A stretch of DNA of 33,236 nucleotides from Anaerolineales bacterium (GTDB taxonomy: Bacteria; Chloroflexota; Anaerolineae; Anaerolineales; Villigracilaceae): NCBI GenBank assembly GCA_020060235.1, contig JAGVAO010000041.1, positions 1 to 33,236 of the forward strand. Reading direction: 5' to 3'. Within the stretch, counting starts at the first letter, position 1, and each line of letters begins with the position of its first letter. Below are positions 1,086 through 1,546 of this stretch, in pieces. The position numbers were made by a program, and so were the translations under genes. Under the pieces are notes generated by a model. It was not told where the DNA came from. It ran no database searches and worked only from the letters and a program-made list of their open reading frames with translations.

Positions 1086-1119
1086 TAAAAACTTCCGAAG
1101 CCTTGATGACTTCGGAAGT
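1086..1119 (-). terminator. Intrinsic terminator (attenuator) in the pyrB leader
   Basis: On the minus strand a perfect 10-bp stem (arms 1110-1119 and 1091-1100, ACTTCCGAAG / CTTCGGAAGT, 9-nt loop) is followed directly by a short T run. It lies between the stop codon of the leader peptide and the pyrB Shine-Dalgarno, so it can only act as a conditional terminator for pyrB. The upstream arm starts about 11 nt after the leader stop codon, inside the footprint of a ribosome paused or terminating there. The first arm can also fold on itself (GACTT/AAGTC), a weak alternative. Confidence 0.8.
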
Positions 1120-1130
1120 CGAATGCTAAA

Positions 1131-1181
1131 TTATCGCACGAGGGTGCGTACCAGGTGAACAGGACGAAAAAGGTATTTCAC
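1131..1181 (-). CDS. Putative pyrB leader peptide, 16 aa
   Basis: A GTG-initiated reading frame encodes MKYLFRPVHLVRTLVR and ends in TAA. An AGGAG Shine-Dalgarno sits 6 nt before the GTG, and a perfect TATAAT box lies about 22 nt upstream of the start, so the frame is the first thing translated on the pyrB transcript. It is followed by the intrinsic terminator and then pyrB. The layout (promoter, short 5' UTR, leader peptide, terminator whose first arm would be covered by a ribosome at the leader stop) is that of translation-coupled attenuation, as established for the enterobacterial pyrBI leader. The frame contains a T5 run that could act as the UTP-sensitive pause. It also holds four Arg codons, so arginine sensing is an alternative. 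The peptide does not resemble the E. coli PyrL sequence I remember. Confidence 0.65.
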   Translation of the reverse strand: MKYLFRPVHLVRTLVR

Positions 1182-1203
1182 GGTTTGCTCCTTGGCTGGG
1201 CCG

Positions 1204-1232
1204 ATTATACCCCACCTTGACATTCCCTAGAA
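1204..1232 (-). promoter_or_regulatory. Promoter of the pyrB leader
   Basis: A consensus TATAAT lies at 1204-1209 (minus strand). A poor -35 (TTCTAG) at 17-bp spacing lies at 1227-1232. Predicted start is near 1197, about 15 nt before the leader-peptide GTG. It interlocks with the divergent pheS promoter: the pheS -35 box (1217-1222) falls in the spacer of this promoter. Confidence 0.65.
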
Positions 1233-1244
1233 TTTGGCGATAAT
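1217..1244 (+). promoter_or_regulatory. Promoter of the pheST T-box leader
   Basis: A perfect TTGACA at 1217-1222 is followed after 16 bp by GATAAT (5 of 6 matches) at 1239-1244. Predicted start is near 1251, just before the T-box leader. It overlaps the pyrB promoter on the other strand. Confidence 0.75.
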
Positions 1245-1250
1245 TACCCC

Positions 1251-1546
1251 CAACAGGCGAGCCTTTCCAACGGCACTGACCGGGGAAAGTAGTTTGGCAG
1301 AAGTTGACAGAGAAGCGCGGTCATTTGGCTGAAATCTGCGCCCAACCCCAACCAAACGAAGTTCCCCCGCGAGCCGCTCCGGTGAACGTAGGGCAAATTG
1401 CCAATTTGCCCACTGGTAGTCGTAGCCGTTTCCCCACGTTACAGGGGCAGCCGATGTTGGTCGGCGTAAAGTGACTGCTTTGGCAGTAATTTGGGTGGTA
1501 CCGCGAGACATTCCCCTCTCGTCCCAATCTGGGCGGGAGGATTTTT
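1251..1546 (+). promoter_or_regulatory. T-box riboswitch (Phe) for pheST
   Basis: This is a tRNA-sensing leader that reads through its terminator when uncharged tRNA-Phe is bound. The T-box core TGGGTGGTACCGCG is at 1492-1505. The terminator stem pairs 1515-1524 with 1531-1540 and is followed by T5 (1542-1546). The competing antiterminator can pair TTGGG (1491-1495) with CCCAA (1523-1527). Stem I can be read: CGGGG (1281-1285) pairs with CCCCG (1365-1369) and GTTTGG (1292-1297) with CCAAAC (1352-1357). Between them is an internal loop with AGTA (1288-1291) on one side and GAA-G-TTC on the other. This puts a Phe codon UUC (1362-1364) in the specifier position, which fits the downstream genes. 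A Stem III-like hairpin ACTGC/GCAGT lies just before the T-box. Confidence 0.93.

Follow-up and report, generated by a model that had tools for sequence, protein, structure and literature searches.

A putative pyrBI-type attenuator in front of pyrB in an Anaerolineales bacterium and similar leaders before pyrimidine genes of its family

The pyrB gene of an Anaerolineales bacterium is probably controlled by a ribosome-relieved, UTP-sensitive attenuator of the pyrBI type, and translation-coupled attenuation of some kind at this gene is very likely, as judged from sequence. Enterobacteria provide the textbook case of UTP-sensing attenuation that needs no regulatory protein. The element described here lies in a stretch of 33,236 nt (the window), which forms contig C117 in an assembly (G000) of 4.0 Mb and 279 contigs. 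According to the mechanism we propose, RNA polymerase would start approximately 7 nt past a TATAAT element and a ribosome would load on a short leader frame. With plentiful UTP, the polymerase would outrun the ribosome, a terminator hairpin would fold and transcription would stop before pyrB. When UTP is short, the polymerase would pause on U-rich sequence in the leader and the ribosome would catch up; positioned at the leader stop codon, at the foot of the hairpin, it would cover the first arm, and the polymerase would continue into pyrB. The sequence of the leader peptide itself would be immaterial.

The leader and terminator in front of pyrB

All parts of the element are encoded on the minus strand, upstream of pyrB (84-1067, ATG at 1067). 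This open reading frame encodes an aspartate carbamoyltransferase of 327 aa and was identified by profile search (TIGR00670, 369.5 bits against a cut-off of 236.95). The leader promoter has a TATAAT -10 element at 1204-1209, and TATAAT is also present in the congener G002 (L152/L239). The putative ribosome site of the leader, AAGGAG at 1188-1193, lies 6 nt 5' of a GTG start codon (1181-1179), which opens a frame of 16 codons (1131-1181) encoding VKYLFRPVHLVRTLVR, its first residue being read as Met, and ending with TAA at 1133-1131. A T5 run in leader codons 4-5 (1167-1171) is the candidate UTP-sensitive pause site. The foot of the hairpin is located 10-11 nt 3' of the leader stop codon. The intrinsic terminator, which would be the attenuator, extends over 1087-1120, with the stem followed by TTTTT (1091-1087). 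Its arms ACTTCCGAAG and CTTCGGAAGT pair perfectly over 10 bp; with G-U pairs included, the predicted fold has 13 bp (1120-1108 with 1102-1090), and 1 of 200 dinucleotide shuffles was at least as stable (z -3.07). The energy calculated for the hairpin is -18.0 kcal/mol. The pyrB ribosome site, again AAGGAG, follows at 1076-1081. TATAAT, ribosome site, 16-codon GTG frame, stop codon, terminator and pyrB ribosome site had been described in an initial annotation of this DNA, and all of them were recovered on the minus strand.

Between the leader promoter and pyrB stands an intrinsic terminator at which transcription is predicted to end. The distance between the stem and the pyrB ATG is 23 nt and leaves little space for a separate promoter; transcription of pyrB probably passes through the hairpin. 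The T-run contains TATAAC (1087-1082, 5/6), which has no -35 element and would place the transcription start within the ribosome site of pyrB. For the leader promoter no recognisable -35 element was found either, with TTCTAG at 17 nt spacing, and a generic promoter and terminator scan of the window listed neither this promoter nor the hairpin. On the minus strand the scan returned a weaker promoter-like site within the leader (TTCACC-18-GATAAT, 1159-1130, 9/12); two promoter-like sites were seen in the stretch, against 2.2 expected by chance. Seven terminators were obtained on both strands of the window, and the layout of promoter, frame and stop at the hairpin was present only at the one before pyrB. 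In 30 Markov-resampled windows that served as a control, none of 30 terminators combined an exact TATAAT with a ribosome site and a frame of this kind.

The blocking of the hairpin by a ribosome at the stop codon is a step that would fit the window leader well. The UTP-sensitive pause is the weakest link of the mechanism at this leader, and is suggested by one U5 run and by a sister switch in the same genome (see below). The leader contains 27% U (1198-1121) compared to 20.6% T on the minus strand as a whole, and the U5 run is located approximately 46 nt 5' of the hairpin and not adjacent to it, which counts against a pyrBI-type reading.

On the opposite strand, a T-box (RF00230, 104.3 bits, 1267-1529, plus strand) precedes pheS (Pfam) and is divergent from the pyrB leader. 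The promoter in front of this T-box/pheS unit (TTGACA-16-GATAAT, 1217-1244, plus strand, 11/12 in the promoter scan) and the pyrB leader promoter lie nearly back to back. Apart from this T-box and one tRNA, the window gave no Rfam match at gathering score, and no match to the leader was obtained in a plasmid collection.

Leaders before pyrimidine genes of the family

The 80 named relatives of pyrB share 81-93% identity and are titled Anaerolineales, Anaerolineae, Chloroflexi and the like; nearly all of them are MAGs. This bears out the placement in Chloroflexota, which had initially been guessed. Among the matches listed, the congener G002 was the only one with a full-length relative of the leader (77% identity, query positions 19-146 of 151). 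Its leader VKYLFRHIHLVQAVMR has 16 codons, a GTG start, TATAAT and the same hairpin, with 13 nt between stop codon and hairpin. The frames of G002 and the window are 73% identical at the nucleotide level, with 4/2/7 differences at the three codon positions and with 5 synonymous and 6 non-synonymous codon changes, which amounts to a weak coding signal with a peptide free to vary. In G002 the genes of an alpha/beta hydrolase and of an EamA-type protein (both by Pfam) stand between the element and pyrB, which lies about 2.2 kb further on, whereas pyrB directly follows the element in the window. A T-box adjoins the G002 element as well (L239, 2504-2789).

In the congener G001, the corresponding frame has only 7 codons (VSNKFEP) and ends 14 nt before the hairpin, which counts against the peptide under the refuting condition set in the initial annotation and also against the pyrBI-type reading. 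The leaders of G001 and G002 are only mildly U-rich (0.27 in the last 30 nt). A leader of another kind stands before uraA in the congeners G003 and G004. The initial annotation had suggested an alignment of the regions upstream of pyrB in relatives as a check of the leader frame. In such a comparison the layout proved to be conserved; the peptide was not, as is evident from the short frame of G001 and the other leader of G003 and G004.

To cover the family, 146 regions upstream of pyrB were read, some of which are short at contig ends; L049 (the same place as L001) and L002 and L003 (other carbamoyltransferases) were dropped from the counts. Other units of leader and terminator were detected within approximately 150 nt of pyrB, with unrelated peptides such as MLFVFVPVPIP (L011), MKFVQVSIP (L012), MTSPFRLTKPKEPTVRLDFRISPKHCP (L020), MTFSLSYLNPFQKHAILCPF (L048), MPFSLLLFYQLQKRVLYPF (L056) and MAYTSFHKTDLAKNDFYSSFYRFH (L027). 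The layout was present at 27 of 128 terminators in the named loci. Twenty-five of the 27 share the strand of pyrB and 24 of these lie upstream of it, and it was through this concentration that a family-wide set was found. For 60 genomes, upstream regions of up to 9 kb were fetched (shorter for L282, L285, L286, L293 and L297). Here 35 of the 100 terminators that share the strand of pyrB had the full layout, versus 2 of 47 on the other strand, at least one of the 35 (L257) being the end of an ordinary gene. Frames of the LQFWQKAC... type (L055, L060, L173, L192, L257) were rejected as leaders, since they are ordinary gene ends caught by the layout rule.

Leaders were collected irrespective of the frame, the criteria being the type of hairpin, the -10 box and the first start codon. 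This resulted in 53 leaders, 50 of them in 48 of the 60 pyrB-upstream regions and three at uraA loci. No leader was found in 12 of the 60 regions, which counts against the pyrBI-type reading. Figures given below for 60 leaders include seven picked by eye (the window, L011, L012, L020, L048, L056 and L080). Five genes were sought downstream of the 50 leaders, and the nearest was pyrC in 28 cases, uraA in 11, a small HPYEEP protein in six, pyrB in three and an alpha/beta hydrolase in two. The distance from leader to gene is 690-710 nt in three cases and at most 300 nt in the rest, and other frames may intervene. The uraA permease was assigned as Xan_ur_permease by Pfam; as an NCS2/uracil permease it scored 227 bits, which is under the NCBIfam cut-offs. 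The dihydroorotase (pyrC) matched TIGR00857 just under the cut-off (271.1 versus 279.05), and the HPYEEP protein had no profile match in NCBIfam or Pfam. In 51 of the 53 leaders the start codon is located 7-11 nt after the -10 element, and these leaders are therefore predicted to be leaderless or nearly so. Rfam searches on 15 and seven relative loci, the 15 mostly chosen for another motif, gave no family for the leaders; at the seven leader loci only a T-box and one miRNA-type match far below the gathering score were obtained. At L289 and L293 (G021 and G100), two switches are found in tandem in the same pyrimidine cluster, one before uraA and one before pyrC.

A covariance model of 21 leaders (R1), which is blind to the genes, matched in 93 of the 152 family genomes and in 20 of 26 genera; the lack of a match in the other 59 genomes counts against the pyrBI-type reading. 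Searches in the class and the phylum were run with stricter filters, by which weak matches are lost. Of 396 genomes sampled from the class 21 had matches, including three that do not belong to the family; of 400 sampled from the phylum 19 had matches, all within the class and all but one within the family. The three matches outside the family precede pyrC-pyrB, pyrC and pyrB, and for two of the three the E-value is close to the limit. Of 44 R1 places examined as loci, 43 are followed on the same strand by pyrC (27), uraA (15) or pyrB (1), at a distance of at most 300 nt in 42 and approximately 650 nt in one (L336). L335 and L315, loci that begin near a contig start, were counted with the uraA and pyrC just downstream. 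The sole place without a pyrimidine gene (L330) is cut by a contig end, and when the 14 training sequences of R1 were excluded, 29 of 30 places had one of the three genes downstream.

The genome of the window itself harbors a second switch, which is of the R1 type and precedes uraA-pyrC. Its leader is MSTQCRCPWEPSRKNFTGMSVFVFQKRESRF, and GTGTTTTTGTTTTTC precedes its hairpin. R1 did not match the leader of pyrB in the window, G000 being listed only at C127; the window element is thus tied to the large set by layout, genome and gene function and not by sequence. Control had initially been discussed for a lone pyrB. A switch before pyrB is indeed present, but this description is too narrow, as units with uraA and pyrC occur across the family. 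The pyrC match in the genome of the window (G000:C127:6615-7706, L303) contains one in-frame TGA, yet an open frame of 371 aa is listed; the TGA could be a match-end effect or a sequence error.

Frame, composition and alternative explanations

In all 53 leaders, frame 0, which is set by the start codon, ran without a complete stop codon to within 16 nt of the hairpin, while frames 1 and 2 were open in 21 and 28. After dropping leaders at least 70% alike, frame 0 was open in 40 of 40 and frames 1 and 2 in 17 and 19, and 5000 shuffles gave a mean of 17.6 (sd 3.0) and a maximum of 29 of 40. A frame that would bring a translating ribosome to the hairpin was found in the window and in each of the 53 sampled leaders. 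Stop codons start from 17 nt 5' of the hairpin to far past it (60 leaders). In 18 leader pairs of equal length from these 60, which are not independent and two of which are identical rows, third codon positions hold 190 of 439 differences. The stop near the hairpin, the open frame across the set and the pyrimidine gene context support the logic of a leader-frame attenuator, as initially put forward.

The U fraction is 0.50 in the last 15 nt ahead of the hairpin and 0.36 in the preceding 15 nt, against a background of 0.236. A U-rich candidate pause region is clear in the set and weak in the window leader (27%, one U5). Wobble positions of the leaders differ from those of the pyrC and uraA clusters, with GTT:GTC at 45:9 versus 292:464, ATT:ATC at 43:17 versus 389:631 and TTT:TTC at 95:74 versus 296:493. 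U-rich blocks together with U-biased wobble codons argue for selection on nucleotides and not on one amino acid.

The signal that is read by a translation-coupled attenuator could also be general translation capacity instead of UTP: good initiation would block the hairpin and pyrB would be made, while poor initiation would lead to a stop. The good ribosome site of the window leader, its stop codon 10-11 nt from the hairpin and its only mild U-richness would fit this. A ribosome at such a stop is able to block a hairpin; in E. coli, when the distance between a stop codon and a terminator was reduced from 28 to 5 bp, termination fell from approximately 90% to less than 10% (PMC4824070). We nevertheless regard this explanation as unlikely, because the tie to pyrimidine genes at 43 of 44 places and the U-richness of the set, which lies at the nucleotide level and includes U-biased wobble positions, point to a pyrimidine signal.

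A DNA search with the whole element, in which up to five candidates per genome were scored and counts are lower bounds, gave matches in at least 119 of the 152 family genomes. Among the matches listed, all but G000 and G002 fall within query positions 100-150, which correspond to the hairpin and T-run. The hairpin sequence that recurs across the family looks like a reused terminator. Within the genome of the window, the strict hairpin pattern occurs once. Covariation of the hairpin (alignment A2) was not above shuffles, because the stem is nearly invariant. The CTTCCGAAG/CTTCGGAAG terminator is repeated in the family and at some places gives a match on either strand, and hairpins of the CTGACAGG type recur before pyrB in family genomes; both look like reused terminator modules. 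The recurrence of the window hairpin would suit an explanation in which it is an ordinary reused terminator and the frame is a product of chance or a relic, with pyrB expressed by leaky readthrough or from the promoter-like site at 1159-1130. So would the very short frame of G001, the missing -35 element and the 9/12 score of the site within the leader. This explanation appears improbable: the 16-codon frame is kept in G002 with differences of 4/2/7, the frame statistics of the set and the resampling control (0/30) speak against a chance layout, and the inner promoter-like site is not above chance expectation.

Phe, Ser and Arg are all enriched in the leaders, Phe most strongly (0.132 versus 0.043). 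Arg reaches 0.089 compared to 0.046 in pyrC and uraA; being approximately twofold enriched, and present in 49 of the 53 sampled leaders, it is not wholly neutral evidence. The initial annotation had counted four Arg codons in the window leader and had named arginine or carbamoyl-phosphate balance as an alternative signal, in which case stalling at regulatory codons would switch between terminator and antiterminator. Only three of the 16 codons encode Arg (codons 6, 12 and 16), no run of one codon is present in the window peptide, and Arg12 is replaced by Gln in G002. The leaders L048 (MTFSLSYLNPFQKHAILCPF) and L080 have no Arg and L056 has one, and the enrichment of Phe accompanies a general gain of U-rich codons. 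Pairing with the first arm of the terminator did not exceed that of shuffles in any of 60 leaders (z averaging +0.6 and never below -2), so that a trp-type antiterminator is not supported; the absence of an antiterminator structure corresponds to the pyrBI type. In addition, amino-acid attenuators keep more than 20 bp between stop codon and terminator, according to PMC4824070, while the distance here is 10-11 nt. An arginine signal is thus not supported and is very improbable.

PyrR-dependent pyr attenuation in Bacillus acts by premature termination upstream of pyr genes, and premature termination before pyr genes is likewise predicted here. The PyrR profile NF003549 (E <= 1e-25) scored in none of the 152 family genomes (88 of which are >=90% complete and <=5% contaminated) and in 6 of 14 control genomes. 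Seven of the eight phosphoribosyltransferase matches of G000 were typed, and none was PyrR over the cut-off. In the window, no Rfam match to a PyrR binding-site RNA was obtained at gathering score. With this one profile and 0 of 152 genomes, nothing indicates PyrR-based control. Control of the leader by PyrR or a riboswitch, which only the gene context would favour, is the least credible explanation, given the family without a PyrR profile match and the window and seven leader loci without a matching Rfam family, in which it differs from Bacillus.

Known attenuators and other elements near pyrB

The switch would work like the known pyrBI attenuation, and the likeness to enterobacterial pyrL is claimed for the mechanism only and not for descent. 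Shared features are a leader frame reaching an intrinsic terminator, a pyrimidine gene downstream and, in the set, a leader that may require U. For pyrL of E. coli, according to PMC10135430, abundant UTP leads to termination, while scarce UTP leads to pausing and the coupled ribosome prevents the hairpin. The leader of pyrL contains 49% U according to this source, unlike the 27% of the window leader. Furthermore, the pyrBI terminator is situated inside its own leader gene (PMC4824070), whereas the window leader ends 10-11 nt before the hairpin. The phylum is a different one, 51 of the 53 leaders of the set are predicted to be leaderless or nearly so, and the genes controlled here would be uraA, pyrC and pyrB.

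Leaderless leader peptides are known from Corynebacterium: ilvL of Corynebacterium glutamicum has its start codon approximately 1 nt from the transcription start, as described in PMC11857589. The uraA/pyrC-type leaders, predicted to be leaderless, resemble it in this respect. In contrast to ilvL, neither regulatory amino-acid codons nor competing hairpins were found here, and the leader of the window itself, with its ribosome site, does not belong to the leaderless type.

On a wider scale, we propose a PyrR-independent pyrimidine regulon of the Anaerolineae, an idea to which we give roughly even chances. RNA polymerase would be the UTP sensor, and leader peptides of free sequence, mostly leaderless, would be the signal carriers. 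The regulon would have originated independently of enterobacterial pyrBI and would extend through the family and into three or more further families of the class, with units of uraA, pyrC and pyrB. The window would contain the rarer version, with a ribosome site, on pyrB, and its genome would have the leaderless version on uraA-pyrC as well. If this is true, the same logic operates throughout a family of another phylum in which PyrR gave no match, which would mean that UTP-sensing attenuation evolves repeatedly, and in a large group of mostly uncultured bacteria regulation would be assigned to the pyrimidine genes. The approximately fifty diverged natural leaders would allow pause, frame and hairpin spacing to be compared, and their mostly leaderless starts would offer a test of how RNA polymerase is coupled to ribosome loading at the extreme 5' end. 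A description of pyrimidine attenuation in Chloroflexota was not found in the papers searched, which does not establish its absence from print; the main texts of PMC2965389 and PMC3766115 do not contain the term pyrB.

Another conserved element, GTGATTAAACGGGA-N~22-GTCCCGAT, was observed at most 260 nt upstream of pyrB in relatives (e.g. L077 at 570-607, L075 and L109) and was not found in the window. The pattern occurred in 18 of the 146 pyrB upstream regions, compared to none when reversed and two when reverse-complemented, and three matches were obtained on both strands of 509 kb of other upstream DNA. In its 8-bp stem three cells were changed on both sides, which 34 of 500 shuffles reach, and its covariation score was reached by 2 of 500 shuffles, the rows having been chosen for the pattern. 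It is possible that it represents an RNA element of pyrB. Finally, matches to the cspA thermoregulator RF01766 were observed beside pyrB in two Anaerolineales/Anaerolineae MAGs, one at L011 (2670-3038, 75.4 bits), below the cut-off of 78, and one above it at L012 (2570-2969, 79.1 bits).
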